Of a stretch of 64,000 nucleotides of DNA, positions 38,007 through 59,555 are shown piece by piece. The notes under the pieces are model-generated. The model was not told the origin of the DNA. It saw nothing but the letters and a program-made list of their open reading frames with translations, and ran no database searches. The translations under genes were made by a program, and so were the position numbers. The DNA is taken from the NCBI GenBank assembly GCA_938003835.1, contig CALKXJ010000007.1, forward strand, positions 1-64,000, in the 5' to 3' direction. Positions within the stretch are counted from its first letter, which is position 1. Every line of letters begins with the position of its first letter. This stretch comes from an uncultured Bryobacteraceae bacterium. GTDB lineage: Bacteria; Acidobacteriota; Terriglobia; Bryobacterales; Bryobacteraceae.

Positions 38007-38148
38007 TTCTGAAGGGAGTCTGTCTCGAATAGAATCGGCCGCGTGGGGCTTCGTCTGACCGCAGGTGTACGGTTGGCCGGAGGGCACAGTACGGGGTCGG
38101 TTGGGTGGGAAAAGGCTCCCTGACAAAGCCAGATTGAGGGAGGTTTCG

Positions 38149-41100
38149 ATGGCAACATCTGCCTTTCGCGTCCACGCCGTCTGGGTCGTCATCCTTGCCG
38201 TCGCTCTCGCGATGCCGGTCTGGCCCCAGGCCAGCACCGCGCGGGTGAGCGGAACCGTCCGCGATCAGACCGCAGCGGTGATCCCCCAGGCCACCGTCAC
38301 CTTGACCAACACCGCCACGAACGTGACTCTGCGTTCCACCACGAACGAGGCCGGCTTCTTCCTCTTTCCCGGCGTCATTCCCGGCACCTATCGCCTCACC
38401 GTCGAATCCGCCGGCATGCAGAAGTGGGAGGGCGAGCTCAACGTGCAGGTCGGCCAGAGCGTCGTCATCGACCCGGTTCTCGAGGTCGGCCAGACGGTCA
38501 CCGAGATCTCCGTGCGCGACGTCACACCGCTCGTCACGACGGACAATCCGACGCTCGGCCACGTGCTCGAACGCGAGCGCATCGAGCAGTTGCCCATCAA
38601 CGGCCGTAACGTGCTGACGCTGCTGCAAACCGTGCCCGGCATGGAGGGCACCCGCGCCTACGGGCTGCGGGAAGGCTCGCACGAGGTCGTGCTCGACGGC
38701 GCCGCAATGAGCGACCGCCTCTGGGGTGGCGCCATGCGCCGCATGCCCGGACTGGACACCATCCAGGAGTTCAAGGTCGAAAACAACAACTCCTCGGCCA
38801 AGTTCAACCGGCCCACCACGGTGTTGATGTCGACCCGCAGCGGCACCAATCAGATCCACGGCGCGCTCTTTGAAACCCACCGCAACAACTCGCTCGGCGT
38901 GGCGCGCCGCCGCCAGGACTATTTCAGCAAGGCGCCCCAGTTGATTCGCAACGAGTTCGGCGCCTCGGCCGGCGGGCCGGTCTACATCCCGAAGCTGTAC
39001 AACGGCAAGGACCGCACCTTCTGGTTCTTCGCCTACGAAGGCTACCGCCAGGTGAGCCGCACCAACTGGAGCGGTTCGGTGCCCACCGAGGCGATGCGCA
39101 ACGGCGACTTCCGCGGCCTGGTGGACGCCAACGGGCGCCAATTCGTTCTTTACGATCCCTGGTCGACCAATCCCCAGACCTGGACCCGCCAGCCGTTCGC
39201 CTACCGCGGCGAGCTCAACGTCATCGACCCGTCCCGCATCAGCCCGCTGGCCAAGCACCTGTACTCGGTAACCCCGCTGCCGACGCACCCCCAGGTCAAC
39301 CCGCTGGTGGAGGCCAACTGGTGGGGCACCGCGCCTTACCGGCGCAACGAGTGGACCATCACCGCGCGCTTCGATCACAGCTTCACCGACAATGACCGGG
39401 TCTACGTCCGCTACGGCCAAGGCGACCAGCGCATCTTCTCGCAAGATTGGAACCTCCCGATGCTGGACCTGGTGGCGGGCAGCGTGCGGCGCCAGGCGCC
39501 GAACAAAACGCTGGCGCTCTCTTACGTGCGGACCTTCTCGCCGACCTTCTTCAACGAGCTGCTGGTGAGTGGCGCCCGCGAGTTCTGGTGGAAGGGTACC
39601 GGCGAGCCCGGCGTCAAGTATACCGACCGGCTCGGTCTGCCCAATCCCTTCGACGTCGTCGGCTGGCCGGCCATTTATGATACCGGCTTCACCAACTATG
39701 TCTCCGACAACACGCAGGCGTCCGCCAACACTTACCTCATCATCGACAACAACGCCACGAAGATCGCCGGGCGCCACGAATTTCAGTTCGGCTACCACTA
39801 CCGCTACGATCAGTTGAACCTGCTGCCCGATCAGCAGCAGAACCAGGGGCTCATTCAGGGCAATACGCTGGCCACAGCCCTCTACGATCCGAGGACCGCG
39901 CGCACCAACCCGCTGGCCACCCCGTTTACGGGCCATAATGCCGCCAACACGTTCCTCGGCATCATGAACTACTCCAACCAGTTCGTGCGCGGCTACTTCT
40001 ATGCGCGCGGCCGCGAGTATGCCCTCTACTTCCAGGACAACTGGAAGGTCTCGCCGCGGCTCACCTTGAACCTCGGCCTGCGCTGGGAGTACTGGCCGGC
40101 CTTCCGCGAGAAGCGGAACATCATGACCAGCTTCGATCCGAACCAGAAGGCGGCTGTGCTCGGCACCTCGCTCGAGGAAATGTACAAGCTGGGAGCGACG
40201 CTGCCGGCCATCGTGAACCGGCTCGAGTCCTTAGGGGCCAAGTTCATCACCTGGGAACAGGCCGGCCTGCCCCAGAACCTGATGCGTAGCCCCAAGCGGG
40301 ACTTCGGCCCACGGCTGGGCTTCGCCTATCGGCTGGGCGACGGCGCGCGCTCCTTGGTCCTGCGCGGAGGTTACAGGATCTCCTACTTCCACATTCCCGC
40401 CCGGCCCTGGGTGGCGCGGATGCGCCTGAACGCCCCGCTCACGGCGCGCTTCAACAACAGCCTGACCGACCCGGCCTTGGCGCCCGACGGCCTGCCCAAC
40501 TACGGCATGCGCTCCGTGCCCACCATCATCGCCGGCCAGAACAGCCGCAACGCCGTCAGTCTGGCCATGGCCAGCGGCCTCACGCGAGGTTCGCCGAACG
40601 CCAGCTATTTCGCTCCCAACCAGCCCGACGCGCGCGTGCAGGATTGGAACTTCACCATCGAGAGAGAGATTATGGAGAACACGCTGGTGCGCGCCTCCTA
40701 TGTCGGCAACCACTCCAGTCACCTCGAGCAGTTCTACCAGTACAACTTGCCCACTCCGGACTACATCTGGTTCGTAACCACCGGCGAACGCCTCCCCACG
40801 GGCGAGTATTCCGGCGTCGCGCGGCGCCCGTATGACAAAGTCGTCTGGGGCAATGTGGAGGAGTACCGCATGAGCGGTTGGGGTAACTTCAACGGCGTGC
40901 AACTGGAAATCGAGCGCCGGTACAGTAAGGGCTACGGCTTCCAGCTCTTCTACGTCATGGGCAACAACCTCGCCGCGGGCGGCCAGCAGTGGAGCGGCAC
41001 CTCGGTCATCCCCGAACTGAATCAGTTCCTGCCCGGCCTGGTGCCCACCGACATCCATGCTCGCAACCGGTTCCTCAATTATCAGCGCGACACGAGCGTG

Positions 41101-41820
41101 CCCAAACACCGCCTGCGCTGGAACTGGATCGTCGATCTTCCATTCGGCCGTGGCAAGCCGATCGGCTCGAATGCTGGCGGCTTCCTGAACCGGGTGATCG
41201 GGGGCTGGCAGGTGGCAGGCATCGGCTCCTGGGGCACCCGCTACTTCGCGCTGCCCACGAATATCTATCCCAACGGGAACAAGATCGAGATCTACGGCAC
41301 CAGGTACAAGATCGAGGACTGCACGAGCGGCGTCTGTTACCCCGGCTATCTCTGGTGGAACGGCTACATTCCCGCCCATCGGATCAACAGCGTCAACCCG
41401 GCCACCGGACGGCCCAACGGCATCATGGGCGTTCCGGCAAATTACAAGCCTGCCGGCGAGCCGCTGATTCCCTGGCCGAAAGAGCCGAACCCTGCCGATC
41501 CCATGTACGCCTTTTATGGAACGAACACGGCCTGGGTAACACTCAAGGACGGTACCGTGCAGCGCACCACCTTTAACGACGGCCTCCATCCCTGGCGGCA
41601 GCAGTACTTCCCGGCACCCGGCCAGTGGGTGCTCGACGCCGCTCTGTTCAAGACCATCCCCATCACCGAGCGCGTTCAGATGCGCCTGAACGCCGACTTT
41701 TTCAACGTCTTCAATCGGCCGGGAACGCCCGGCTCGGTCGGGGGCAACGGCGTGATCAGCACCCGTGTTTCTGACCTCGCCCCGCGTGAGCTCCAGTTGA
41801 CGCTGCGGCTCATGTGGTAA
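38149..41820 (+). CDS. Oar-like TonB-dependent outer-membrane receptor with carboxypeptidase regulatory domain
   Basis: 1,223 aa. Signal peptide (about 1-30), carboxypeptidase-regulatory Ig-like domain ('ARVSGTVRDQTAAVIPQATV' ... 'PGTYRLTVESAGM', about 30-110), plug-like domain ('QLPINGRNVLTLLQTVPGM', about 145-165; 'DTIQEFKVENNNSSAKF', 'VLMSTRSGTNQIHG'). A long beta-barrel region follows, ending in an outer-membrane-type terminus '...LQLTLRLMW' (final aromatic residue). Such proteins are abundant in Acidobacteriota and probably import oligomeric substrates. The ATG at 38149 follows GGGAGG; codons upstream lack similarity. Confidence 0.92.
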   Translation: MATSAFRVHAVWVVILAVALAMPVWPQASTARVSGTVRDQTAAVIPQATVTLTNTATNVTLRSTTNEAGFFLFPGVIPGTYRLTVESAGMQKWEGELNVQVGQSVVIDPVLEVGQTVTEISVRDVTPLVTTDNPTLGHVLERERIEQLPINGRNVLTLLQTVPGMEGTRAYGLREGSHEVVLDGAAMSDRLWGGAMRRMPGLDTIQEFKVENNNSSAKFNRPTTVLMSTRSGTNQIHGALFETHRNNSLGVARRRQDYFSKAPQLIRNEFGASAGGPVYIPKLYNGKDRTFWFFAYEGYRQVSRTNWSGSVPTEAMRNGDFRGLVDANGRQFVLYDPWSTNPQTWTRQPFAYRGELNVIDPSRISPLAKHLYSVTPLPTHPQVNPLVEANWWGTAPYRRNEWTITARFDHSFTDNDRVYVRYGQGDQRIFSQDWNLPMLDLVAGSVRRQAPNKTLALSYVRTFSPTFFNELLVSGAREFWWKGTGEPGVKYTDRLGLPNPFDVVGWPAIYDTGFTNYVSDNTQASANTYLIIDNNATKIAGRHEFQFGYHYRYDQLNLLPDQQQNQGLIQGNTLATALYDPRTARTNPLATPFTGHNAANTFLGIMNYSNQFVRGYFYARGREYALYFQDNWKVSPRLTLNLGLRWEYWPAFREKRNIMTSFDPNQKAAVLGTSLEEMYKLGATLPAIVNRLESLGAKFITWEQAGLPQNLMRSPKRDFGPRLGFAYRLGDGARSLVLRGGYRISYFHIPARPWVARMRLNAPLTARFNNSLTDPALAPDGLPNYGMRSVPTIIAGQNSRNAVSLAMASGLTRGSPNASYFAPNQPDARVQDWNFTIEREIMENTLVRASYVGNHSSHLEQFYQYNLPTPDYIWFVTTGERLPTGEYSGVARRPYDKVVWGNVEEYRMSGWGNFNGVQLEIERRYSKGYGFQLFYVMGNNLAAGGQQWSGTSVIPELNQFLPGLVPTDIHARNRFLNYQRDTSVPKHRLRWNWIVDLPFGRGKPIGSNAGGFLNRVIGGWQVAGIGSWGTRYFALPTNIYPNGNKIEIYGTRYKIEDCTSGVCYPGYLWWNGYIPAHRINSVNPATGRPNGIMGVPANYKPAGEPLIPWPKEPNPADPMYAFYGTNTAWVTLKDGTVQRTTFNDGLHPWRQQYFPAPGQWVLDAALFKTIPITERVQMRLNADFFNVFNRPGTPGSVGGNGVISTRVSDLAPRELQLTLRLMW

Positions 41821-41834
41821 ACCAGGATCCGGCT

Positions 41835-41867
41835 CCGGGCGGCGGCGCCCCGCCGGCCGCCGCCCGG
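41835..41867 (+). terminator. Strong GC hairpin after the receptor gene, terminator-like
   Basis: A perfect 12-bp stem (CCGGGCGGCGGC at 41835-41846 with GCCGCCGCCCGG at 41856-41867) encloses a 9-nt loop, 15 bp after the receptor stop. Only CTTT follows, so it is an atypical intrinsic terminator or an mRNA-stabilising hairpin. Confidence 0.55.
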
Positions 41868-41868
41868 C

Positions 41869-41897
41869 TTTACCCGCACTTCCAACTGGTGTATATT
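41869..41897 (+). promoter_or_regulatory. Promoter of the beta-propeller/PHP gene
   Basis: TTTACC (41869-41874), 17-bp spacer, TATATT (41892-41897), 18 nt upstream of the ATG at 41916, with CCGGAGG as ribosome site in the short leader. It directly follows the hairpin, so this gene appears to be an independent unit. Confidence 0.6.
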
Positions 41898-41915
41898 GCA
41901 CCCGGAGGTGCGGCG

Positions 41916-44768
41916 ATGTCCAAGCGCTGGTCACGGTTTGGCCCATTCGGTATTGCGGCCGCAGCAGCGATCGCCTTCGCGCTGCTGGCGCCGTCCAAGG
42001 CGGTTCTCACCCAGTCCTCCCCCACGTTGTCCCCAGACGATGAGTCGCTGGTCTCCTTTCGCCTCCGCTTCGGCCTGACTGACACGGAGTCCCGGCGCTG
42101 GGACGGCAATCTCACGGTCTCCGGAGGCGAGATGGTCAACTTGCGGCTGTGGCGGCCTCGCCCGGGAGACCGTATCGAGGGTTCGAACCGCTGGCAGGCC
42201 GTCAGCCGCCAGGGAATCAATTTTCAGAAGCGCGCCTGGGAAGCGGAGGAGCCCGCCGGTCCGCAGCCGTACATTCTCCCCACGGGGATCATCGCCGACG
42301 TCAGAGGCTCCAGTGGAACTCGCGTCCAGGTGCGCACGGCGCAGGGCAGCTTCGAAGTCCGGCCCTTCGAGCTGGCGCCGGGCTCCCCGAGAAGCTACCT
42401 CAGCGGCGCCGTCGTCGCCGACCGGGTTCCGACCGCTCAGATGGTGTCGACTCGCGACCGGCAGAACGATTTCGCCACCCTGGTCACGGGGCCGGGCGGG
42501 GAGATCTGGGTCGGCTGGCTCGCTTACGCCGGCTGGAAGAATCAGGTAATGGCACGGCGCTGGAATGGTGCGGCGTGGGAGGAGGCCGTCACGGTCTCCG
42601 ACACGCACGACGACATCTTCCTGGTCAAGGCCGCCCGCGACGCCAAAGGCCGTGTCTGGTTCGTCTGGTCAGCGCAGGTGGACGGCAACTGGGACCTCTA
42701 CGCCCGCTGCCGCGAAGGCTCCTCGTGGTCGCCCATCGAGCGCCTGACCACGGCGCCGCAGCCGGACCTCTTCCCTGCCCTCGCCCTCGATGCGCGCGGC
42801 AACCTCTGGGTGGTCTGGCAAGGCTTTCGTAACGGGGCTTCGGATATCTTCGCGCGCTATCACGACGGCGCTGCCTGGTCAGCCGAGCAGAAGGTCTCCG
42901 ACTCACCGGCCAACGACTGGGAACCGGCCATCGCCGCCGATGCGCAGGGCACCGTCTGGGTGGCCTGGGACACTTACGAGAAAGGCAACTATGACGTCGT
43001 GGTGCGCCGGCGCCAGGGCGATCAGTGGTCCGAGATCATCCCCCTGGCCGCCACGCCCAGGTTCGAGGCCCATGTGAGCCTCGCCTGCGATGGCCGAAAC
43101 CGCCTCTGGGCTGTCTGGAATGAGAGCGGCACGCAGTGGGGCAAGGACACCGGCTTCTTGTTGAACCGGCAGGGGACGCGGCTGTATCAGGGCCGCTGGA
43201 TGGCGGTGGCCGTCTTTGACGGGGCCTGGCAGGAGCCCGCCGCCCGGCTCGAATCCTCTCTCCCGCCGGAGCTCCGCGGCAACAACGATATGCCGCTCGT
43301 CACTGCCGACGGGAAAGGACGCATCTGGCTGCTCTTTCGCCACCGCTTCCCCCGGATCCTGGACACGCCGAGCGATGCGCCGATGCACCGTGCCGCCTGG
43401 GAGATCTTCGCTACGACGCTCGACGGCGACCGGTGGCTCGAGCCGATCCCCATCCCCTTCAGCCAGGGCCGCACCGACATGCGAGCCGGCTTCGCCTCCG
43501 ACGGCGCCGGCCGTCTCTATGCCGCCTGGCCGATGGACAACCGCGATTACGCCGAGTTCCTCTTCACGCAGGCCGACGTCTACCTGGCGCGAATCCCCGC
43601 ACCGGCCTCCGCACCTCGCGAACCCAGGCTCCAGCCGCGAAAGCCCGCGGAGATCCCGACCTTCCCCCTGCATCCCAACGAGCCCGAGGAGCTCGCCCGC
43701 ATCCGAAACTACGAGATCCGCTCCGGTGGCGCCACCTACCGGATCTATCGCGGCGACACGCATCGCCATACGGAATTTTCTATGGACGGCAACAATGACG
43801 GCAGCCTGATCGACACCTATCGCTACGCATTGGATGCGGCCGCTCTGGACTTTCTCATGGTCAGTGACCACAACAACTTCGCCGGGCCGGATATCGAGTA
43901 CATCAACTGGCTGCTCCAGCAGATGGCCGATGTGCTGCTAATTCCCAACCGGTTCGTGCCTTTGTTCGGCTACGAACGCAGCGTTCCCTACCCCAACGGC
44001 CACCGCAACGTCATCTTCGCTCGCCGCGGTAATCCGACGCTGCCGATTCCTCCGGAGGAGACCAAGGGCGTTAGCGGCGCGCAGGCCCTCTACGAATACC
44101 TGCGCAACTACGACGGCATCGCCATTTCGCATACTTCGGCAACTGGCATGGGCACCGACTGGCGAGACAACGATCCCGAGCGCGAGCCGCTCGTCGAGAT
44201 CTTCCAGGGCGACCGCGTCTCGGCCGAATACGAGGGAGCCCCGAAGGCCGCTTGGGGCGGCAAGCTCACCGGGGCGCCCGGAGGCTACCGCCCCGCCGGA
44301 TATGTCTGGAACGCGTGGGCCAAGGGCTACAAGCTCGGCGTACAGGCCTCTTCTGACCATCTGTCAACTCACATCTCCTACGCCTGCACCATCGCCCGCC
44401 AGTTCACGCGCGAGGGGCTGCTCGAGGCGATGAAGATGCGGCACTCCTACGGCGCCACCGACAACATCGTGCTCGACTACCGGCTCCGCACCCACGACGG
44501 CGCCGAGTACTTGCAGGGCGACATTCTCCGCACCGGCCCGGGTTTCACCCTCTGGATCAAGGTGATCGGCACCGCCCCCATCCGCCAGCTCGACATCATC
44601 AAGAACAACACCTTCATTCACACCGCCCACCCGCTGCGCCAGGAGGTCGAGCTGACCTTCGCCGACGCACGAGCCGAGGACCAGATCGACAACTACTACT
44701 ACGTTCGCGTCATGCAGGTCGACGACCAGATGGCCTGGAGCTCGCCGATCTGGGTGACGGTGAAATAG
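41916..44768 (+). CDS. Exported beta-propeller (sialidase-like) plus PHP-domain fusion protein
   Basis: 950 aa. Signal/anchor segment 'FGIAAAAAIAFALLAPSKAV' (about 8-27). Residues about 180-570 contain repeated blades with Trp-rich strands ('GEIWVGWLAYAGWKN', 'GRVWFVWSAQVDGNWDLYA', 'GNLWVVWQGFRNGASDIFA', 'GTVWVAWDTYEKGNYDVVV', 'NRLWAVWNESG'), a BNR-like propeller. Residues about 620-900 carry PHP metal motifs 'YRGDTHRHTEFSMDGN', 'LMVSDHNNFAG', 'ISHTSATGMGTDW' and 'VQASSDHLSTH', as in DUF3604-like proteins. The substrate is unknown. Own promoter; it lies between the Oar-like receptor and nrfHA. Confidence 0.82.
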   Translation: MSKRWSRFGPFGIAAAAAIAFALLAPSKAVLTQSSPTLSPDDESLVSFRLRFGLTDTESRRWDGNLTVSGGEMVNLRLWRPRPGDRIEGSNRWQAVSRQGINFQKRAWEAEEPAGPQPYILPTGIIADVRGSSGTRVQVRTAQGSFEVRPFELAPGSPRSYLSGAVVADRVPTAQMVSTRDRQNDFATLVTGPGGEIWVGWLAYAGWKNQVMARRWNGAAWEEAVTVSDTHDDIFLVKAARDAKGRVWFVWSAQVDGNWDLYARCREGSSWSPIERLTTAPQPDLFPALALDARGNLWVVWQGFRNGASDIFARYHDGAAWSAEQKVSDSPANDWEPAIAADAQGTVWVAWDTYEKGNYDVVVRRRQGDQWSEIIPLAATPRFEAHVSLACDGRNRLWAVWNESGTQWGKDTGFLLNRQGTRLYQGRWMAVAVFDGAWQEPAARLESSLPPELRGNNDMPLVTADGKGRIWLLFRHRFPRILDTPSDAPMHRAAWEIFATTLDGDRWLEPIPIPFSQGRTDMRAGFASDGAGRLYAAWPMDNRDYAEFLFTQADVYLARIPAPASAPREPRLQPRKPAEIPTFPLHPNEPEELARIRNYEIRSGGATYRIYRGDTHRHTEFSMDGNNDGSLIDTYRYALDAAALDFLMVSDHNNFAGPDIEYINWLLQQMADVLLIPNRFVPLFGYERSVPYPNGHRNVIFARRGNPTLPIPPEETKGVSGAQALYEYLRNYDGIAISHTSATGMGTDWRDNDPEREPLVEIFQGDRVSAEYEGAPKAAWGGKLTGAPGGYRPAGYVWNAWAKGYKLGVQASSDHLSTHISYACTIARQFTREGLLEAMKMRHSYGATDNIVLDYRLRTHDGAEYLQGDILRTGPGFTLWIKVIGTAPIRQLDIIKNNTFIHTAHPLRQEVELTFADARAEDQIDNYYYVRVMQVDDQMAWSSPIWVTVK

Positions 44769-44780
44769 CCCTCCCGGCGT

Positions 44781-44810
44781 TTGCCCGAGCAACGGCGGGC
44801 GGGATACAAT
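44781..44810 (+). promoter_or_regulatory. Promoter of nrfHA
   Basis: TTGCCC (44781-44786), 18-bp spacer, TACAAT (44805-44810), only 10 nt before the nrfH ATG. Transcription would begin within about 4 nt of the start codon; no Shine-Dalgarno is present. Confidence 0.6.
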
Positions 44811-44820
44811 AGTTTCTACC

Positions 44821-45276
44821 ATGCAGGCAGAAGGCGCTCTGGCGGCGCTCCTCGGGGTTCCTCTGGGGGTGCTGGTTGGATTGGGCCTTTACACGTTCGG
44901 TTACGCTCGGGGCTACTCCTACCTGTTGGACGATCCTGAGGCCTGTGCGAACTGCCACGTCATGAGGGAGCAACTCGCCACCTGGATGCGGTCGAGCCAC
45001 CGCCGGGCCGCCGTGTGCAACGACTGTCATACACCCCACTCCCTCCTGCCCAAATACTTCACGAAGGCCGTCAACGGCTTCAACCACTCGGCTGCCTTCA
45101 CCACCGGGCGCTTTCCGGACCAGATCCGGATCAAAGCCCGGAACCGCCGCCTCGCCGAGGAGGCGTGCCTGCGGTGCCACCAGGAGATCACCGCCGCCAT
45201 CCGCACCCCGCATCGGCCCGGCGATGAGAGCTTTTCCTGCGTCGCCTGTCACGCCCAGGTCGGACATGCAGACTGA
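44821..45276 (+). CDS. nrfH: Cytochrome c nitrite reductase small subunit NrfH
   Basis: 151 aa NapC/NirT-family quinol dehydrogenase that passes electrons from menaquinol to NrfA. An N-terminal membrane anchor (about 8-28) is followed by four heme c sites: CANCH (42-46), CNDCH (66-70), CLRCH (116-120) and CVACH (140-144). The first is followed by Val-Met, with Met48 in the place of the axial Met of heme 1 in known NrfH. Four hemes and length match NrfH. NrfA follows after 24 bp. Confidence 0.95.
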   Translation: MQAEGALAALLGVPLGVLVGLGLYTFGYARGYSYLLDDPEACANCHVMREQLATWMRSSHRRAAVCNDCHTPHSLLPKYFTKAVNGFNHSAAFTTGRFPDQIRIKARNRRLAEEACLRCHQEITAAIRTPHRPGDESFSCVACHAQVGHAD

Positions 45277-45300
45277 ATTCTCTCCGGGGAAAGACATTCC

Positions 45301-46686
45301 ATGAAACTGGATCGCCGCATCGTCTGGACGATCGTGGCCTCCGCCGTGCTGACCATGGCCGTGGCGGCCCTGCTCGTCAGCATCATTGAGCGCAAGCAGG
45401 AGGCTCGCCACACCTTCTTCCGCGTGGCCGAAATCGACGAGGACACCGAAGACCCCGCCATCTGGGGACGCAATTTTCCGCTTCAGTACGACTCCTGGAA
45501 GCGGACCGTCGACATGGTTCGCACCCGCTACGGAGGCTCCGAGGCCCTCCCGCGCAATCCCACCGCAGCCGATCCGCGCGAGCGCGTCTCGCAGGAGAAG
45601 ATCGAAGAGGACCCGCGCCTGAAGCGCATGTGGGCCGGCTATCCCTTCTCGGTCGACTTCCGCGAGGAACGCGGTCACGCTTACATGCTGATCGACCAGC
45701 GTTACACCCGCCGGGTGCTCGAGTTCAACCAGCCGGGCGCATGCCTCAACTGCCACGCCTCCACCGCCGTCATCTATCGGAAGCTCGGCGGAGGCGACAT
45801 CTTCAAGGGTTTCGAGGCGCTCAATCGCATGCCCTACGCCGAGGCCACCAAATACGCCACTCACCCCGTCGCCTGCGTGGATTGCCACGAGCCCCAGACC
45901 ATGCGCCTGCGCATCACCCGCCCCGCCTTCCTCGAGGGAATCCGCGCGCTCAAGGCTTCCCAGGGCGTGCCCGACTACGATCCCAATCGGATGGCGTCGG
46001 CGCAGGAGATGCGCACGTTTGTCTGCGCCCAATGCCACGTGGAGTACTACTTCAAGGGCGAGGAAAAACGCCTGGTCTATCCCTGGTCCAAAGGACTACG
46101 CGCCGAAGAGATGCTCGCCTACTACGAAGAAGCGGCTCACCGGGACTGGGTTCACGCCGAAACCGGAGCTCCGGTGCTCAAGGCGCAGCATCCGGAATTT
46201 GAAATGTTCAGCCAGGGCATCCATGCCCGCTCGGGCGTTGCCTGCGCCGACTGTCACATGCCGTACAAGCGCGAAGGCGGCATGAAGGTAAGCGATCACC
46301 AAGTCCGCAGCCCGCTGCTCAACATCAACCGGGCCTGCCAGGGCTGTCACCGCTTCTCCGAACAGGAGCTTAAAGACCGTGTCGAGGAGATCCAGGACCG
46401 TTTCATCGGCGCCCGGAATATCGCCCTTGACGCGCTCATGGACCTGATCGCCGAGATCGCCCGCTTCCGCGCTGCTGGAGCCTCCGATGCCCAGCTTGCG
46501 CCCGCCTGGCAGGCCCAGCGCCACGCCCAGTTCTTCATCGACCTGGTGGAGGCGGAAAACTCCGCCGGTTTCCACGCACCCGGCGAGATGCTCCGCGTGC
46601 TGACCCAGGCGCTCGACATCATCCGCCGCGGCCAGGTCTCGCTCCGTGAGCTTCAGCCACTGCGTCCTACCGCCGCTAGCCGGTGA
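45301..46686 (+). CDS. nrfA: Cytochrome c nitrite reductase NrfA (ammonia-forming), CXXCH-type
   Basis: 461 aa periplasmic pentaheme enzyme that reduces nitrite to ammonium (DNRA). N-terminal signal or anchor about 8-28. Heme sites: CLNCH (148-152), CVDCH (192-196), CAQCH (242-246), CADCH (315-319), CQGCH (346-350). In most NrfA the first, catalytic heme is CXXCK; here it is CXXCH, as in a minority of NrfA clades. The active-site pattern 'CHVEYYF' (Tyr) and 'AQHPEFE' (His) is retained, which supports true nitrite reductase rather than octaheme or other cytochromes. Expressed with nrfH. Confidence 0.94.
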   Translation: MKLDRRIVWTIVASAVLTMAVAALLVSIIERKQEARHTFFRVAEIDEDTEDPAIWGRNFPLQYDSWKRTVDMVRTRYGGSEALPRNPTAADPRERVSQEKIEEDPRLKRMWAGYPFSVDFREERGHAYMLIDQRYTRRVLEFNQPGACLNCHASTAVIYRKLGGGDIFKGFEALNRMPYAEATKYATHPVACVDCHEPQTMRLRITRPAFLEGIRALKASQGVPDYDPNRMASAQEMRTFVCAQCHVEYYFKGEEKRLVYPWSKGLRAEEMLAYYEEAAHRDWVHAETGAPVLKAQHPEFEMFSQGIHARSGVACADCHMPYKREGGMKVSDHQVRSPLLNINRACQGCHRFSEQELKDRVEEIQDRFIGARNIALDALMDLIAEIARFRAAGASDAQLAPAWQAQRHAQFFIDLVEAENSAGFHAPGEMLRVLTQALDIIRRGQVSLRELQPLRPTAASR

Positions 46687-46750: not shown

Positions 46751-49700
46751 TTAGAAGGTCAGCCGGACTCCCAGCTCGACCTGCCGGCCCGTGATGGTGC
46801 CCATCGACATCGTCTGCGCGCCGAACGTCGCCGTGGGAGCACCTTGATACAGCGTCTTGCCGAAGTTGGCGCTCACCGGGCTCACGTCGGGATTGCCACG
46901 GTTCAGCCGGTTCGTCGCGTTGTAGGCGGTCATCTCGAGCTCGGCCTTGAGCCGCTCAGTGATGCGGAACGTTTTGCCGAGGCTGGCATCGATTACCCAG
47001 AAGCTCGGCCCCGTCAGTCCCGGATACTGCCACGGGTTGGTGCGGATCACATAGACGCCCGAGGGCACCGGCGTGATCTTCGTCGTGTCGAACCAGCGCT
47101 CCGGCTTCGGGTTTGGAATCGTCGGATCGCCCGTGGCGATGGCTTTCGGGAAGCGCAGGAAGGCGCCCGAGGTGTAGGTCAGCAACCCCGTGATCTGCCA
47201 GCCTCCGATCAACGCGTCGGCTGCGGCTGGCAAGTCGGCCCCGTAGGCGCGGCCCCGGCCGAAGGGCAGCTCCCAGGTCCCCGCCGCCGTGATGCGATGC
47301 CGCGGCTGGTTGCTATCTAGGTAACGTAGCATGTTGGTGTATTCGTCGAGTTCGCTCTGGAACAGCTGCGTTTTTTCGCGGATGTAGGCATACGCCGCCA
47401 GGAAGTTCCAGCCCTTCGTGAACGCCTTTTGAGCCTTGAACTCGAGCGAATGATAGCGTTCAGCGGCGCCGAGCGTGCCGACCTCGTACAAGCCTCCGTA
47501 GTGAGGATAGGGCCGCAACAGGCTCTCGAGCGGAATCGTGCGCTGGTTGCGCAAGGGCCCGGGGAAAAGCGTTGCGTTCAGGTACTGGTAGAAGGGATTC
47601 GGGACGCTCACGCGTACCGCCGCCTGCTCGCGCTCCAAAATCCGCGGATCGACCATGTTGATGTTCATCCGCGTATAGTGCTGATTTCCAATGTTGAAGA
47701 ACCAGGTGAACGACGTCACGATCTCGCCGGGGATCTGGCGCTGAAGGTTGAAGCTCAACCGGTCGTTGCGCGCCTTCTTGAGCGGCTCGCGCGGGAACCA
47801 CAACAGCGGCTCGCCGCCACGGCCCAGATTCGGGCCGTAGCCCTTGCCCAGCACCGGCAGCAGCGGGTTCACATCCGCCGGGAACGGATCGGAGATTCGC
47901 TGCTGCGGCACGCCGTCGCGCAATGGGGCCGTGTTTTGGTATCGCCGCATGCCGAAGAACGGGGGCTCGAGGAAGCTCACCGTCTCGAAGCCGGTCACCG
48001 GCGCCTGACTCAGCACCTGCTGGTACGGAACCAGGAATCGCCCGTAGCCGATGCGAAGCGCGGTCCGGTCATCGATGCGGACGGCGACGCCCGCGCGCGG
48101 AACTAGAGCTAGCCGCTGCGGATCCCACATACCCCGCTTGTCCTTGCTGGTCCAGAGCCATTGGCCGTTCCACTTGTAAAAGCCGCTACCGACGAGCGCC
48201 ACCGCCTGGGGCGGCATCTGCGGCGGGTTGGCCTGCATCTCGGGGATCGGCGCACTCAGATCGAGCCCGCGCGAGAAGTTATAGTTCGGGTCGTACCAGG
48301 CGGTCTCGGTTTCGTTGCGGACACCGAAGCTCAGCGTGATTCGTCGGGTCAGCTTCCAGTCGTCCTGGAAAAACATCCCCCAGAACTGGATGTGTGGGTC
48401 CGGAGCCGGCCCGCCAATCACCTGCGAGGTGTCGTCCAGCGCGCCGAGCAGGAAGGTGGCAAAGCCGTCACCGTTGCGCCGCACGTCAGGGCTGAGAAAA
48501 GTTTCAGCTGTCAGCCCGGTCGGGAAGAAGAAGCGCTCGGTGTTGCCGACGAAGGTCACGCCGTAGCTGCGCCGATATTCGAGCCCTGCTTTCAGATAGT
48601 GAGAGCCGCGCTGCTGCGACAGCCGGCCGTAAAGTTTCATCGCCTTCGGTCGCTGATCCCAATAAAAGCCCGGGCCGCCGAACACGCCGCGGCCGCCTAT
48701 ATTGAGATACGGGAAGTAAACCGGAACGCCCTTAGAGGCATCGTGATTCACCTTGTACCAGGGATTGTTTGGCCACAGCGACGCCCAGCCCTGGCTGCCG
48801 AAGACCGGCGAAACCCGCGCGTCCACAATGTTGTCCCAGCTTCCCCGGATGTTGAGCACGGTTTGCGGATTGATCGTCCAGACGGCGTCGCCCGAGATCT
48901 GGTTGGCCTGGCGCAGGCTGCCGGTCGGGACAAACAGCATGGAATTGTTCGGCGTCGGGTTGGTTTGCGTGTTGTCGGTGTGGTACCGGCTGATGCGACC
49001 GTAGACTTTCCAATTGTCGTTGATGCTGTAGTCGACACGGTCGGAGAAGTTGTAGTAATCCCAACTGTTGATCAAACCGATCTTGAAGTTGTTCACGCCG
49101 GTGATGTTATCGCCCGGGTTGTTCGGGTCCCAGAAATGCTTCAGCAGCCCGGCGGCAAAGGAATCGAAGCGGGCACGCGGGATCACGTTGCCGGGAAACG
49201 GCGTCCGCACGAAGCGCCCGCTCGCCGCATCGAGCCGCGTGGTCCAGGGATCGTAGAGAGTTCTCAGGCCGCCCTCAATGTTAAAGGACTTGGAAAAATC
49301 GCCCTCGCGCTCGAGCGGCGTCGGGACCGTCGTCACCAGGCTGCCCGGCGAGCGCACCTTCCAGTACTCGAGCGAAAAGAAGTTGAACAACCTGTTCTTC
49401 AGAATCGGATTGCCGAGCGTTCCGCCCATCATGTGCTGGCGCGTGGCGATCCGCGTGTTCCGCGTCCGGTCAGCGATCGCGTTCAGCCAGGGATAACGGC
49501 CGAGATAGAACGTCGTGCCGTGCCATTCATTCGTGCCCGCTTTGAGCGTAAGGCTGATCAGGCCGCCGGCGCTATGGCCCGTCTCCGCGTCGACCGGATT
49601 TTGCGAAACGACCACCTCCTGAACGGCATCGATGTTCGGCGGGTAGCTGTTCTTGTGACCGATGCCGATAGGGCTGCCGTCGACCTGAAGATCGTTTTTA

Positions 49701-50275
49701 AGGTTGGTGCCGCCGCCGAGGTCGACGCTGTTGGCCGCCCAGGAATGAAACGGCATCATTTCGCCGCGCGTGTTGATCGCCGAAGGCGCCAGCAGGGTTA
49801 GCTTGAACGGGTTGCGATCGATACGCGGCACCTCGGCGGCCAGCCGCGCGTCGATGGTGAAGTCCTTGGCAGCCGAGTTGAACTGCACCGCCACAGGTGA
49901 TTCCGTAACGGTGATGCTCTCCTGAACCATGCCCGGCTGCAAGGTGACGTTGACGGTGACATCGCCGCGCATCTGGACGACGATGTTCTCCTGCACAAAC
50001 CGGTTGAAACCGGCGTGCTCGACGGTCAGCGTGTAAGTGCCGGGGTCGACGAAATCGAACAGATACAGGCCGGTCTCGCTCGTCTGGCGGACCGTGCGGA
50101 CGCCGGTGTGAACGTTGAGCAGCGTGACGGTGGCCCCGGCGACCACCGCCTGGGTCTGGTCGGTGACGAGGCCCAAGATACGGGCGCGATAGCTCTGGCC
50201 GGAAAGCGGCGCATGGACGAGAGTCAACGCACACAATAGAGCTATCGGCCAAACGGAAATTCCGCGAGTTTTCAT
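46751..50275 (-). CDS. Oar-like TonB-dependent outer-membrane receptor with carboxypeptidase regulatory domain
   Basis: 1,174 aa. Signal peptide 'MKTRGISVWPIALLCALTLV', regulatory Ig-like domain ('ARILGLVTDQTQAVVAGATV' ... 'PGTYTLTVEHAGF', about 30-110). Plug-like region with 'DLGGGTNLKNDLQVDGSPIG', 'DAVQEVVVSQNPVDAETGHS' and 'LISLTLKAGTNEWHGT', then the barrel, ending 'QVELGVRLTF' with the C-terminal Phe typical of outer-membrane proteins. The same family as the receptor at 38-42 kb, but with clearly different sequence. Substrate unknown. Converges with nrfA (64 bp apart). It has its own strong promoter at 50327-50355. Confidence 0.92.
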   Translation of the reverse strand: MKTRGISVWPIALLCALTLVHAPLSGQSYRARILGLVTDQTQAVVAGATVTLLNVHTGVRTVRQTSETGLYLFDFVDPGTYTLTVEHAGFNRFVQENIVVQMRGDVTVNVTLQPGMVQESITVTESPVAVQFNSAAKDFTIDARLAAEVPRIDRNPFKLTLLAPSAINTRGEMMPFHSWAANSVDLGGGTNLKNDLQVDGSPIGIGHKNSYPPNIDAVQEVVVSQNPVDAETGHSAGGLISLTLKAGTNEWHGTTFYLGRYPWLNAIADRTRNTRIATRQHMMGGTLGNPILKNRLFNFFSLEYWKVRSPGSLVTTVPTPLEREGDFSKSFNIEGGLRTLYDPWTTRLDAASGRFVRTPFPGNVIPRARFDSFAAGLLKHFWDPNNPGDNITGVNNFKIGLINSWDYYNFSDRVDYSINDNWKVYGRISRYHTDNTQTNPTPNNSMLFVPTGSLRQANQISGDAVWTINPQTVLNIRGSWDNIVDARVSPVFGSQGWASLWPNNPWYKVNHDASKGVPVYFPYLNIGGRGVFGGPGFYWDQRPKAMKLYGRLSQQRGSHYLKAGLEYRRSYGVTFVGNTERFFFPTGLTAETFLSPDVRRNGDGFATFLLGALDDTSQVIGGPAPDPHIQFWGMFFQDDWKLTRRITLSFGVRNETETAWYDPNYNFSRGLDLSAPIPEMQANPPQMPPQAVALVGSGFYKWNGQWLWTSKDKRGMWDPQRLALVPRAGVAVRIDDRTALRIGYGRFLVPYQQVLSQAPVTGFETVSFLEPPFFGMRRYQNTAPLRDGVPQQRISDPFPADVNPLLPVLGKGYGPNLGRGGEPLLWFPREPLKKARNDRLSFNLQRQIPGEIVTSFTWFFNIGNQHYTRMNINMVDPRILEREQAAVRVSVPNPFYQYLNATLFPGPLRNQRTIPLESLLRPYPHYGGLYEVGTLGAAERYHSLEFKAQKAFTKGWNFLAAYAYIREKTQLFQSELDEYTNMLRYLDSNQPRHRITAAGTWELPFGRGRAYGADLPAAADALIGGWQITGLLTYTSGAFLRFPKAIATGDPTIPNPKPERWFDTTKITPVPSGVYVIRTNPWQYPGLTGPSFWVIDASLGKTFRITERLKAELEMTAYNATNRLNRGNPDVSPVSANFGKTLYQGAPTATFGAQTMSMGTITGRQVELGVRLTF

Positions 50276-50719: not shown

Positions 50720-51544
50720 GTGGAGGCGACATTCCGGAGAAATCTCACGCCGGAGCAGGTGAGGCCGCGCCTGCGCTCCATCGCGCTGCCGGTGGAGCAC
50801 GGCGGTTGGGGCTTCACGCTGGAGCCGGTCCTGCTCGGCCTGCTCGTCGCGCCGACCTTGACCGGAGTCGCTCTCGGCGCTTTCGCTCTGAGCGCGTTCC
50901 TGACGCGCCATCCGCTGAAGTTGTGGCTGGCGGACCGCCTCGCACGCCGTCAGTACCCCCGGACGAAATATGCCCGGCGCTTCGCGCTTCTTTATGCCGG
51001 TGCGGCGGTGGCGGCACTGGCGGTCGCCGCGCAATTCGCCCGGCAAGAGTTCTGGTCGCCGCTCATCGCCGCGCTGCCGCTTGTCCTCATCCAGCTCAGC
51101 CTCGAGCTCAGAGATCAGGCGCGAAACCTCGCGGCAGAGCTTGCCGGAGCCCTCGCCATGGGCGCTCTGGCGCCGGCCATCGCGCTGGCAGGCGGCGCGG
51201 ATCGGCAAACGGCATACGGTCTCTGGCTGGTCCTCGGCGCGCGGAGCATCGCCGCAATCTTCTACGCCCGCGTCCAGGTGCGACGGGCGCGGGCCAAAGG
51301 CGAACCGGTGCGCCTCGGTCCTGCCTGGCTGGCGATGGCGCTTTCGACCGCGATCCTGTTCGCTGCCGCCTGGGGTGGCCGGATTCCCTGGCTCGGAGCG
51401 ATCTCCGTCGCTCTGCTGCTGCCGCTGGCCGGCATCACCTTCCGTCGGCCCCCGGCGCCGGCAAAGGTGGTCGGCTGGACGCAGATTGCCTTTGGGTTGC
51501 TGGTGGCGGTTGCGACCGCCACGGGAGTTCGCGCAGGCTGGTAG
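50720..51544 (+). CDS. YwiC-like family membrane protein
   Basis: 274 aa, with eight or so hydrophobic segments. The conserved N-terminal motif 'ALPVEHGGWGFTLEPVLLGL' (about 22-41) identifies the YwiC-like family, followed by 'FLTRHPLKLWLADR'. The role of the family is not established; in Bacillus the gene lies by anaerobic nitrate/nitrite genes. The proximity to nrfHA here (4 kb) fits a link to respiratory nitrogen metabolism but is only suggestive. GTG start with GAGGGG upstream. Converges with the TlpA-like gene (11 bp). Confidence 0.85.
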   Translation: MEATFRRNLTPEQVRPRLRSIALPVEHGGWGFTLEPVLLGLLVAPTLTGVALGAFALSAFLTRHPLKLWLADRLARRQYPRTKYARRFALLYAGAAVAALAVAAQFARQEFWSPLIAALPLVLIQLSLELRDQARNLAAELAGALAMGALAPAIALAGGADRQTAYGLWLVLGARSIAAIFYARVQVRRARAKGEPVRLGPAWLAMALSTAILFAAAWGGRIPWLGAISVALLLPLAGITFRRPPAPAKVVGWTQIAFGLLVAVATATGVRAGW

Positions 51545-56019: not shown

Positions 56020-56963
56020 GGCTGGCATTTTTCGGCACGCCGGACGCCGCCGTTCCGTCGCTCGAGCGGCTCGCCGATGCCGGCCATGACATCGCCCTCG
56101 TCATCACGCAACCGGACCGGCCCAAGGGGCGCGGCTATGAGCCCGCGCCATCCCCCGTCAAGCGTGCGGCGCTGGCGCGCGGCCTGCCGGTCTCGGAACC
56201 CCTCAAGATCAGGCAGCCTGAATTCATCGACACCCTGCGCGGCCTCGGCCTGGAGGTGATGGTCGTGGTGGCCTATGGCAAGATCATCCCCCAGGCCATC
56301 ATCGACATCCCGCCGCTCGGCATCGTCAACGTCCACTTCTCGCTGCTCCCGGCCTACCGCGGCGCAGCGCCTGTCGAGTGGGCCATCGCCAACGGCGAGA
56401 CTCGCACCGGCGTCACCACCATGCGCATCGACGCGGGGCTTGATACCGGCGACATTCTGCTCCAGCGCGAGGTTGAGATCGGCCCGGAAGAGACGGCAGC
56501 GGAGCTCAGCCGGCGGCTCGCGCCGATGGGCGCGGACCTGCTCCTGGAGACGCTCGAGGAACTCCGGACAGGCGCCGTCACGCCGCGCCCGCAGGACCAC
56601 TCGCGCGCCACCTACGCGCCGATGCTCACCAAGGAAGACGGGCGGATCGACTGGTCCTGGCCGGCCCTGAAGATCCACCATCGCGTGCGGGGCTTCCAAC
56701 CCTGGCCGGGCGCCTACTGCCTGTTCCGCGGCCGGCTCCTGCACATCTGGAGGACGCGCCCCACACCGGAAACCGTCTCCGGCCCGCCCGGAACGCTGCA
56801 CCCGCAACGGCGCCGGCTGCTCGTCGCCTGCGGAGAGGACACGGCGCTCGAGCTGATGGAGTTGCAGCTCGAGGGTCGCAAGCGCCTCCCGGTGGAGGCC
56901 TTCCTCGCCGGACAGCGCGTCGTCGAGGGAGAGCGCCTGGAACCGGCGCCCTTGCCGGGTTAA
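56010..56963 (+). CDS. fmt: Methionyl-tRNA formyltransferase
   Basis: 317 aa. Formylates initiator Met-tRNA using 10-formyltetrahydrofolate. N-terminal 'RLAFFGTPDAAVPSLERL', catalytic segment 'GIVNVHFSLLPAYRGAAPVEWAI' (Asn, His and the SLLPxYRG motif) and 'GLDTGDIL' (catalytic Asp); C-terminal OB-like tRNA-binding domain (about 205-310). GTG start at 56010 overlapping def, the usual def-fmt pairing. Converges with potD (4 bp overlap). Confidence 0.97.
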   Translation: MGLRLAFFGTPDAAVPSLERLADAGHDIALVITQPDRPKGRGYEPAPSPVKRAALARGLPVSEPLKIRQPEFIDTLRGLGLEVMVVVAYGKIIPQAIIDIPPLGIVNVHFSLLPAYRGAAPVEWAIANGETRTGVTTMRIDAGLDTGDILLQREVEIGPEETAAELSRRLAPMGADLLLETLEELRTGAVTPRPQDHSRATYAPMLTKEDGRIDWSWPALKIHHRVRGFQPWPGAYCLFRGRLLHIWRTRPTPETVSGPPGTLHPQRRRLLVACGEDTALELMELQLEGRKRLPVEAFLAGQRVVEGERLEPAPLPG

Positions 56964-57973
56964 GCCGCCCGGATCTCCGTCCAGATGCGGTCGCGCAACC
57001 GCTGTGCCGCCGCGGGCAAAGCTGTGAACCATTCGCCCCGCCGGAGAACCTCTGCCGGAGGATATAGCACGGGATTCAGCCGCAGCCGCTCGGGGAGTAG
57101 CGCTTTCGCTTTTGCGTTCACCGTTGCGGTCTTGGTCGCCTTCACGACTGCCACCGCCACGTCCGGGCGCAGCAGGTAGTCGATGAAGCGGTGAGCCAGC
57201 TCGACGCGCCCGCTCTCGCGCAGGATCACGGCGTTGTCAGCGTAAAGCGGGAAGCCCTCCGCCGGCCACACGAAGGCAAGCTCGGCGGTCTCTTCCATCG
57301 CCTGAAGCGCGGTCGTTGCCCAGAGCTGCGCCGCGAGCACGTCGCCCGCCACCAGTTGATCGCGCACCTCGGCGTTGACGTAGGCCCGCAGCAGCGGCTT
57401 TTGCGCGCGCGCCTCCTCACCGGCGCGCCGCAACTCGACCGGATCGGTCGAATTCACCGACCAGCCCAGCTTCTTGAGGCACGCCCCCAGCACTTCCGCC
57501 GGATCATCCAGCATCGTCAGGCGGCCGCGCCACCGCTCCTCCCAAAGACTTGCCCAGCCCGCCGGCGGCGTCACCTCGCGCCGGCAGGCGATGCCCGTGC
57601 CGCCCCACATGTAGGGCACACACCAGTCCAGCTTCGGATCCCAGGGCGGCCGGCGAAAGCCCTCCTCGAGATTGTCCAGATTGGGAAGCCAGGCGTGCCG
57701 CAGCGGCGCCAGCAGCCCCTGCTCCCGCATCGGCTCCACCAGCGAATTCGACGGGAAAACGACGTCCCAGCCGGAGTTGCCGGAGAGGACCTTGGCCAGC
57801 ATCTCCTCGCCGCTCTCATAAGTGCCGTAACGAACCCGGACGCCGAACTCGGCCTCGAAGGCGGGAACCGTCTCCGGAGCAACGTAGTCCGACCAGTTGA
57901 ACACGTTCAGCCGCGGACGCCCCGAGCGGCACGCCAGTCCGGGAAGCGCCACGACAAACTCGCGCCTTCTCAT
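56960..57973 (-). CDS. potD: Spermidine/putrescine ABC transporter substrate-binding protein
   Basis: 337 aa periplasmic binding protein. A short basic/hydrophobic start 'MRRREFVVALPGLAC' is the export signal; its Cys15 sits in a poor lipobox (GLAC). 'LNVFNWSDYVAPETVPAFEAEF' (about 22-43) is the PotD/PotF signature, and 'VPYMWGGTGIAC' and 'ADNAVILRESGRVELAHRFIDYLL' follow the family. Last gene of the potABCD operon; ATG overlaps the potC stop (ATGA). Confidence 0.93.
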   Translation of the reverse strand: MRRREFVVALPGLACRSGRPRLNVFNWSDYVAPETVPAFEAEFGVRVRYGTYESGEEMLAKVLSGNSGWDVVFPSNSLVEPMREQGLLAPLRHAWLPNLDNLEEGFRRPPWDPKLDWCVPYMWGGTGIACRREVTPPAGWASLWEERWRGRLTMLDDPAEVLGACLKKLGWSVNSTDPVELRRAGEEARAQKPLLRAYVNAEVRDQLVAGDVLAAQLWATTALQAMEETAELAFVWPAEGFPLYADNAVILRESGRVELAHRFIDYLLRPDVAVAVVKATKTATVNAKAKALLPERLRLNPVLYPPAEVLRRGEWFTALPAAAQRLRDRIWTEIRAA

Positions 57974-58728
57974 GCCCGCCGCAGCCTCTCCGCCAGCAGG
58001 ATGAACACGCCCAGGCCGAAGACGATGGCCGTCGAAACCGCGTTCACCACCGGGCTGACGCCCCGCCGCGCCATGGCGTAGATGACCATGGGAAGCGTCT
58101 CGCTGTCGACGCCCGCCACCAGGCTCGTGATGACGTAATCGTCGAAGGAGAGCGCAAAGCACAACAGCGCCGCCGCGGCGATTCCCGGCCCGGCAAGCGG
58201 CAGCGTCACGCGCCGAAAGGCCTGCCATTCGGTTGCACCCAGGTCCATGGCCGCCTCCTCGAGCGCCGGCTCGAGCGTGCGCAGTCGCGCCAGCACCACC
58301 AGCACCACATACGCCAGGCAGAAGGTCACGTGCGCCAGTACCACGGTGTGCATGCCCAGGCGCACATCGAAATAGCGGAACAGCCACTGATAGAACGCGA
58401 GCAGCGAGATCCCCATGACCACTTCCGGGGTCACCAGCGAGACGTACAGGCCCGCCTCGATCGGCGCCGAGCGCCGCTTCCACAAGCCATAAGCACACAG
58501 GGTCCCCAGAGCCGTTGCCAGCAGGGTCGCCGCCGCGGCAACCAGGAGACTGTTCCAGCACGCCTCGAGCAGTTGGGGATTCTCGAGCGCCGCGCGGTAC
58601 CACCGCAACGAAAAGCCCTCCCAGACGGTGAATCGCGAGGCGTTGAAGCTGAAGACGCCGAGAATGATGAGCGGCAGGTGAAGAAAGGCATAGACGGCCG
58701 CCGCGTACACCCCGAGCAGGCGGCTCAC
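57970..58728 (-). CDS. potC: Polyamine ABC transporter permease PotC
   Basis: 252 aa, six membrane segments. BPD_transp_1 permease with 'LPLIILGVFSFN', the PotC-type 'ALEEAAMDLGATEWQAFRRVTLPLAGPGIAA' EAA loop (contacting the ATPase) and 'DDYVITSLVAG'. The GTG start at 58728 overlaps the potB stop (GTGA); the open frame upstream of it is antisense-like to potB and not used. Confidence 0.93.
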   Translation of the reverse strand: MSRLLGVYAAAVYAFLHLPLIILGVFSFNASRFTVWEGFSLRWYRAALENPQLLEACWNSLLVAAAATLLATALGTLCAYGLWKRRSAPIEAGLYVSLVTPEVVMGISLLAFYQWLFRYFDVRLGMHTVVLAHVTFCLAYVVLVVLARLRTLEPALEEAAMDLGATEWQAFRRVTLPLAGPGIAAAALLCFALSFDDYVITSLVAGVDSETLPMVIYAMARRGVSPVVNAVSTAIVFGLGVFILLAERLRRA

Positions 58729-59555
58729 AGAAACCGCTCCCCTCCGCGCCTCAGCAAGAGGCCGAGCATCAGCATCACCAGCACCATCAGCGCCAGCGAC
58801 GCCGCGGCGCCGAACGGCCAGTCCCGCGCGGCGGTGAACTGGTTCTGAATGAGATTGCCGATCATCACCGTCTTGCCGCCGCCGAGCAGATCCGGCGTCA
58901 GGAAGGCGCCGAGGCACGGGATGAAAACGAGCAGGGAACCCGCGGCGATCCCCGGGCGGGCCAGTGGCACCACCACCCGGAAGAAGGTCTCCCGCGGCGG
59001 CGCGCCCAGATCCCCCGCCGCTTCCACCAGGCTGCGGTCCAGCCGTTCGAGTGTCGCAAACAGCGGCAGAACCATGTAGGGCAGGTGCCCGTGAACCAAC
59101 CCCAGAATCACCGCGCCGTCGTTATAAAGCAGGGCGAGCGGCCGCTCCAGCCATCCTGCTTCGATGAGCAGGGTATTCACGAGACCCGTGTCGCGGAGCA
59201 GGAACATCCAGGCGTAGGTCCTCACCAGATAACTCGTCCAGAACGGCAGAATCACCAGCGCCAGGTAAAGGTGTTTCCGCTCGCCCGAGCGCGCCAGAAA
59301 CAACGCCAGCGGGAAGCCCAGAATCAGGCACAGCAGGGTGGTCAGTCCGGCAATCCAGAACGAGCGCGCCAGGATCTTCAGGTACAGCGGATCGGCCAGC
59401 CGCAGGTAATTCTCCAGCGTCCAGGGCTCCGAGAGTCCGCCGTAGGTTCCGCGCGTCAGCAGGCTGTAGGCCGCCACCACGCCGAGCGGCGCAGCGACGA
59501 AGAACGCAATCCAGAGCCCGGCCGGCGCCAGGAACCAGCTCCGCAGGCGGCTCAT
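58725..59555 (-). CDS. potB: Polyamine ABC transporter permease PotB
   Basis: 276 aa, six membrane segments. 'LLPFWTSYLVRTYAWMFLL'-type segment (about 110-128) and 'LVEAAGDLGAPPRETFFRVVVPLARPGIAAG' EAA loop are typical of PotB. Forms the inner-membrane channel with PotC, powered by PotA. The ATG at 59555 overlaps the potA stop (ATGA). Confidence 0.93.
   Translation of the reverse strand: MSRLRSWFLAPAGLWIAFFVAAPLGVVAAYSLLTRGTYGGLSEPWTLENYLRLADPLYLKILARSFWIAGLTTLLCLILGFPLALFLARSGERKHLYLALVILPFWTSYLVRTYAWMFLLRDTGLVNTLLIEAGWLERPLALLYNDGAVILGLVHGHLPYMVLPLFATLERLDRSLVEAAGDLGAPPRETFFRVVVPLARPGIAAGSLLVFIPCLGAFLTPDLLGGGKTVMIGNLIQNQFTAARDWPFGAAASLALMVLVMLMLGLLLRRGGERFL

Follow-up and report, generated by a model that had tools for sequence, protein, structure and literature searches.

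Organization of the nrfHA locus

The window, i.e., the whole 64,000-nucleotide stretch of DNA analyzed here, carries on its forward strand an nrfA gene (positions 45301 to 46686), which is assigned by sequence, Pfam, and fold to a pentaheme cytochrome c nitrite reductase and whose start and stop agree with the original prediction. The translated open reading frame (ORF) is 461 amino acids long and contains five heme motifs, all of them CXXCH. The catalytic heme-1 site, located by translation and alignment, is CLNCH (residues 148 to 152; 45742 to 45756), and the translation places CVDCH at heme 2 (residues 192 to 196; 45874 to 45888), CAQCH at heme 3 (residues 242 to 246; 46024 to 46038), CADCH at heme 4 (residues 315 to 319; 46243 to 46257), and CQGCH at heme 5 (residues 346 to 350; 46336 to 46350), all on the forward strand. 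An antisense ORF of 442 amino acids (44710 to 46038, reverse strand) runs across nrfA and was taken to be a by-product of GC-rich coding sequence.

The nrfH gene (44821 to 45276, forward strand) encodes the tetraheme partner, with the motifs CANCHVM, CNDCH, CLRCH, and CVACH and a TIGR03153 score of 167.9 bits against a cut-off of 134.2. It stops 24 bases ahead of the nrfA start, and the adjoining genes form an nrfHA pair. On the same strand, a gene for a CehA/McbA-like or DUF3604 protein (41814 to 44768) ends 52 bases before nrfH and is possibly cotranscribed with it. An outer-membrane β-barrel protein with a carboxypeptidase-regulatory-like domain (46751 to 50275; PF25183 and PF13620) and a YwiC-like membrane protein (50720 to 51544; PF14256, 82.5 bits) are encoded beyond nrfA, and ABC transporter genes (binding protein, permease, and ATPase) and a CdaA-type diadenylate cyclase gene occupy 56960 to 60508 and 62577 to 63407. 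By eye, the very large ORF at 38065 to 41820 looks like that at 46751 to 50275, and the two flank nrfHA together with the gene before it.

Five window genes were searched for around nrfA at 80 contig loci (tblastn, E ≤ 1e-6, flanks of up to 6 kb), 74 of which could be judged. NrfH was matched at 69 of the 74 loci, and at 61 it shares the strand of nrfA and lies no more than 1500 bases upstream of it; the locus L067 has room upstream of nrfA, and tblastn found no NrfH match there. The ResA-like and outer-membrane proteins were matched at one locus each, and the CehA-like and YwiC-like proteins were not matched near nrfA at any of the 74; these neighbors were rejected as a functional unit with nrfA. 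The pattern TTGAT-N4-ATCAA, which we take to be that of an FNR box, occurs 17 times in the window when as many as 2 mismatches are allowed, whereas shuffled sequence gives a mean of 7.6 (1 of 100 shuffles was as high), and none of the 17 matches lies upstream of nrfH within positions 44700 to 44820.

Heme 1 and the active site

The heme-1 motif CLNCH lacks the lysine of CXXCK NrfA. H152 aligns with K126 of Escherichia coli NrfA, and translation and alignment together confirm the original claim that CLNCH stands in place of CXXCK. The alignment comprises 115 CXXCH rows (the window protein among them), 3 rows of octaheme nitrite reductases (ONRs), and 8 CXXCK rows, which are few and narrow (Bacteroidota, 3; Gammaproteobacteria, 3; Pelobacter, 1; Acidobacteriota, 1).

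Three further residues, all encoded on the forward strand, align with R106, Y216, and H264 of E. coli NrfA, which we take to be the catalytic residues: R138 (45712 to 45714; 115/115 CXXCH rows and 7/8 CXXCK rows), Y249 (46045 to 46047; 114/115 and 8/8), and H297 (46189 to 46191; 115/115 and 8/8). The E. coli numbering is backed by the PDB titles for H264N and Q263E. The active-site tyrosine and histidine are retained, as had been proposed, in the form of Y249 and H297. E248, Y249, K294, and Q296 align with E215, Y216, K261, and Q263 of E. coli NrfA, presumably its calcium ligands; the calcium-site residues are kept and the XXRH variant is absent, with the window protein reading KAQH up to H297. 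Histidines 126, 308, 333, and 425, which we assume to be the distal ligands of hemes 2 to 5, are present in at least 113 of the 115 CXXCH rows and in all eight CXXCK rows. Another histidine, H188 (45862 to 45864), lies just ahead of heme 2 and is found in 110/115 CXXCH rows and 0/8 CXXCK rows.

Phylogeny and distribution

The 136 ORF hits were reduced to 127 by removal of identical sequences and to 126 by removal of near-identical ones, and the CXXCH rows entered the trees after thinning at 68% identity. In the tree built without ONRs, for which the fifth residue of the heme-1 motif was masked, 42 CXXCH rows including the window protein are separated from the 8 CXXCK rows with a branch support of 96/89. 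In the tree with ONRs, from which the window row was left out, 41 CXXCH rows fall on one side (support, 86/37), and deep placements are uncertain owing to the long branches of L135, L138, and L139. With CXXCH at heme 1 and grouping with the CXXCH rows, the window protein is a member of the CXXCH clade.

Heme 1 is CXXCH in all 80 of the best genome-contig relatives, which were taken from at least 589 by similarity to the window protein, a choice that favors CXXCH; because the histidine is kept in all of these 80, H152 is no lone sequencing error. Their taxa include Acidobacteria, Verrucomicrobia, Planctomycetota, Bdellovibrio, Gemmatimonadetes, and Actinomycetes. The original prediction, which proposed a phylogenetic check, assigned CXXCH-type NrfA to minor clades. 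The well-supported placement on the CXXCH side of the tree agrees with the assignment, but the word minor does not hold, given best relatives that are CXXCH throughout and come from many phyla, and given the finding of Saghai et al. 2023 (Nat Commun; PMC10716430) that roughly 90% of nrfA fragments from soil fall in the CXXCH clade. That survey already counts the clade, and nrfAH was known earlier from 23 acidobacteriotal genomes (PMC8100337); the window gene represents one more genome with a known form of the enzyme.

PF02335 exceeded its cut-off in 113 of 297 sampled Acidobacteriota genomes, although a good part of these were short matches. Among the 30 best-scoring Acidobacteriota loci, one per genome and with that of the window included, 29 are CXXCH and one is CXXCK (genome G162). 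When the window protein was searched against its own genome and those of 60 relatives, 17 of the 61 gave a match (12 with at least 368 bits), so nrfA is patchy even among near relatives.

Two other kinds of sequence were observed. L146 (4025 to 5545, reverse strand; genome G146) encodes a deep-branching CXXCH NrfA, the same protein as in L084, with a heme-1 to heme-2 spacing of 38, as in 7/8 CXXCK enzymes; the other CXXCH enzymes examined have at least 43. The L146 protein may be an early branch. Octaheme ONR-type proteins whose fourth motif is CXXCK are also found within the phylum, at L139 (G324, of the same family as the window genome), L144 (G158), and L145 (G205).

Detection by primers and profile models

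The organism had been expected to be missed by surveys based on CXXCK. For PCR, this expectation fails: the primer sites for nrfAF2aw (46030 to 46046, forward strand) and nrfAR1 (46249 to 46265, reverse strand), with primer letters from PMC7325967, match the window with 0 mismatches and overlap the sites of hemes 3 and 4 rather than that of heme 1. In the alignment set, nrfAF2aw matches 108/115 CXXCH genes and 3/8 CXXCK genes without mismatch, and nrfAR1 matches 112/115 and 6/8, respectively. These primers fit the CXXCH clade well, and for them the worry about oversight by PCR is unfounded.

For profile models the expectation holds in part. The window protein falls below the NCBIfam cut-offs of NF008339 (301.3 versus 595) and TIGR03152 (231.9 versus 692.5), as does a second CXXCH protein, L010. 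Only 5/8 CXXCK enzymes exceed the NF008339 cut-off (2/8 for TIGR03152); since 3/8 thus lie below NF008339 as well, the heme-1 motif need not account for the miss.

Cytochrome c maturation

Three proteins of the window genome match PF01578, one of the CcmF/NrfE family, one CcmC-like, and one CcsB-like, and among them no second, dedicated heme lyase of the CcmF/NrfE type was seen. CcmE exceeds its Pfam cut-off, and the profile search gave no ResB match in this genome; the positive controls, E. coli for CcmE and Bacillus subtilis for ResB, both matched. The CcmF-, CcmC-, CcmE-, and CcsB-like proteins all score below their NCBIfam cut-offs (e.g., CcmF, 441.9 versus 569.05; CcmC, 139.1 versus 186), and the names denote the best family. 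Judged by these profile matches, the genome has markers of System I cytochrome c maturation. A 2025 review supposes System II to be most likely for CXXCH NrfA (PMC12285233), a supposition that the System I markers and the absence of a ResB match in the window genome do not fit.

Maturation markers were tallied by hand in the 29 Acidobacteriota genomes in which a CXXCH NrfA had been verified at the best-scoring locus. CcmE without a strong ResB match was found in 12 of the 29 (G000, which is the window genome, G026, G054, G125, G134, G145, G151, G196, G231, G242, G269, and G293); ResB scored 83 bits in G145 and 50 in G026, gave weak matches (E ≥ 2.5e-5) in six, and was not matched in four. The other 17 have no CcmE match; 15 of them have ResB at more than 120 bits, and G133 and G236 have short partial ResB matches. 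G162, the sole CXXCK genome of the 30, has ResB and no CcmE match. In Bacillus azotoformans, according to PMC3475470, System I genes are linked to a CXXCK NrfHA, and so System I beside NrfHA is not new and need not go with CXXCH.

The single CcmF-type heme lyase seen in the genome would suffice to mature the window NrfA, whose heme 1 has a standard CXXCH attachment site and would therefore need no dedicated lyase. It is conceivable, though we offer the idea tentatively and with more doubt than conviction, that CXXCH NrfA is a portable form of the enzyme that requires no dedicated lyase and works with either maturation system. If true, such portability would help to explain why CXXCH NrfA is spread over many phyla and dominates in soil.

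Nitrogen metabolism of the window genome

The window genome (5.0 Mb in 38 contigs) is listed as 100% complete. A scan of all six of its molybdopterin-family places gave one protein above the NuoG cut-off and none that reaches the cut-off for NarG or NapA. NirK was not matched (TIGR02376) and the best NosZ match (TIGR04246; cut-off, 625) reached 22.1 bits, in a denitrification search that consisted of these two models. One protein (L151) combines a NorB cytochrome-c-like domain (221 bits) with a COX1 domain in Pfam and has no NCBIfam match at 1e-10. A CtaD-type oxidase subunit exceeds its cut-off. Judged by its gene content, the organism can apparently use oxygen for respiration and reduce nitrite, and it may also reduce nitric oxide.

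Fold, heme-1 ligation, and function

The window protein, with its five c-type heme motifs, scores 443.4 bits with PF02335 (Cytochrom_C552) against a cut-off of 24.1, and a solved NrfA (PDB accession number 1fs9) is its first PDB match by phmmer (E = 3.4e-70). The predicted model (27 rows; pLDDT, 85.2; pTM, 0.83) has the NrfA fold and superimposes on E. coli NrfA (2rdz) with a Z-score of 38.0 and an RMSD of 2.1 over 372 residues. A common fold alone is no proof of function, and part of this one is shared with other multiheme families, from which one might argue, together with a heme-1 motif that departs from textbook NrfA, that the protein is a multiheme cytochrome that does not reduce nitrite, such as a relative of OTR, MccA, OcwA, or HAO. 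We consider this extremely improbable. ONRs score up to 34.7 with the model, whereas the undecaheme S-layer cytochrome (16.2), OcwA (15.5), HAO (11.1), and MccA (10.2) score far lower, and VIA-align places nothing but nitrite reductases among its top 20 structural matches. The PDB sequence search returned 22 distinct sequences under 0.001, with NrfA followed by ONRs from E = 2.7e-31 and no family besides these two; R138, Y249, and H297, moreover, are intact. Placement in a non-nitrite-reducing family, which the original prediction named as its refutation, finds no support in sequence, tree, or fold, and these same three lines support an assignment to NrfA among the nitrite reductases.

Within NrfA, the proximal ligand of heme 1 may be sought in the motif histidine or in a lysine from elsewhere in the protein; the 2025 review names both, the latter for some enzymes, and calls the ligand unreported (PMC12285233). 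The predicted model contains no heme, and the ligand is not visible in it. Only two lysines, K294 and K329, are invariant in the 115 CXXCH rows and could act in this way. Both, however, also occur in CXXCK enzymes that have their own lysine ligand (7/8 and 6/8 rows, respectively) and in ONRs (3/3 and 2/3), and K294 aligns with E. coli K261, which we assume to be a calcium-site residue. No further lysine column reaches 95% (the next best are 106, 93, and 92 of 115), and no lysine in the 115-row alignment is specific to the CXXCH clade. Ligation by K294 or K329 is therefore improbable, and H152 is likely the proximal ligand, because lysine conservation offers no candidate specific to the clade. 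In Wolinella succinogenes NrfA, replacement of the lysine by histidine led to a significant loss of activity (PMC8840924), which implies that histidine ligation needs other adjustments. For the form that dominates soils, histidine is thus a clear prediction of the conservation pattern.

As to its role, NrfA could mainly detoxify nitric oxide or hydroxylamine instead of serving nitrite respiration. No internal source of nitrite was identified in the window genome at the NarG and NapA cut-offs or with the NirK model, the L151 protein there carries a NorB cytochrome-c-like domain, and PMC3475470 ties NrfHA elsewhere to nitric oxide and hydroxylamine stress. Other organisms can supply nitrite, however, and the nrfH partner is of the respiratory NrfHA type, and we regard a mainly detoxifying role as unlikely. 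The organism is likely a nitrite ammonifier, because its CXXCH NrfA has the catalytic tyrosine and histidine intact and adjoins nrfH. Given that NarG, NapA, NirK, and NosZ all fall short of their cut-offs, the capacity suggested is for nitrite reduction and not for nitrate to ammonium; the dissimilatory nitrate reduction to ammonium (DNRA) originally proposed is likely from nitrite onward but is not supported from nitrate.

The protein is thus very probably an ordinary CXXCH-clade NrfA that acts on nitrite, with H152 the likely heme-1 ligand, in the NrfHA complex of an acidobacterium related to Bryobacterales, to judge from its nearest named relatives. By analogy with the family, NrfH would draw electrons from the quinol pool, and these would reach heme 1 of NrfA by way of hemes 2 to 5; there R138, Y249, and H297 would bind nitrite for its reduction to ammonium. 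The conservation pattern would make H152, not a lysine from elsewhere, the proximal ligand at this heme, and nitrite would be the substrate in a genome with no identified nitrate reductase.

Comparison with known enzymes

The window NrfA shares heme-1 CXXCH, an NrfH partner, and calcium-site residues with the CXXCH-clade NrfA described in PMC10716430, as well as a broad bacterial spread within one clade. Examples of this clade are the NrfA of Intrasporangium calvum (PMC6349771) and those of Campylobacter jejuni and Anaeromyxobacter dehalogenans, named in PMC12285233. No difference of substance from these enzymes was seen, apart from the System I markers of the window genome where the 2025 review supposed System II. 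The NrfA entries among the PDB matches listed share no more than 36% identity with the window protein by VIA-align, and none of them seems to belong to the CXXCH clade.

The classical CXXCK NrfA of E. coli, W. succinogenes, and Desulfovibrio vulgaris have a fold like that of the window protein (Z-scores of 36 to 38 for the three) and have in common with it the catalytic arginine, tyrosine, and histidine, hemes 2 to 5, and four further conserved histidines. They carry lysine at heme 1, whereas the window protein carries histidine; S154, a residue specific to the CXXCH clade like H188, is replaced by proline in 7/8 CXXCK rows, and the identity of the window protein to six CXXCK rows is 25 to 36%. 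ONRs, the first described member of which is ammonia-forming (PMC8840924), have the same core fold as the window NrfA (Z-scores of 33 to 35) but differ in three extra N-terminal hemes and, in three examples, in CXXCK at the catalytic heme.
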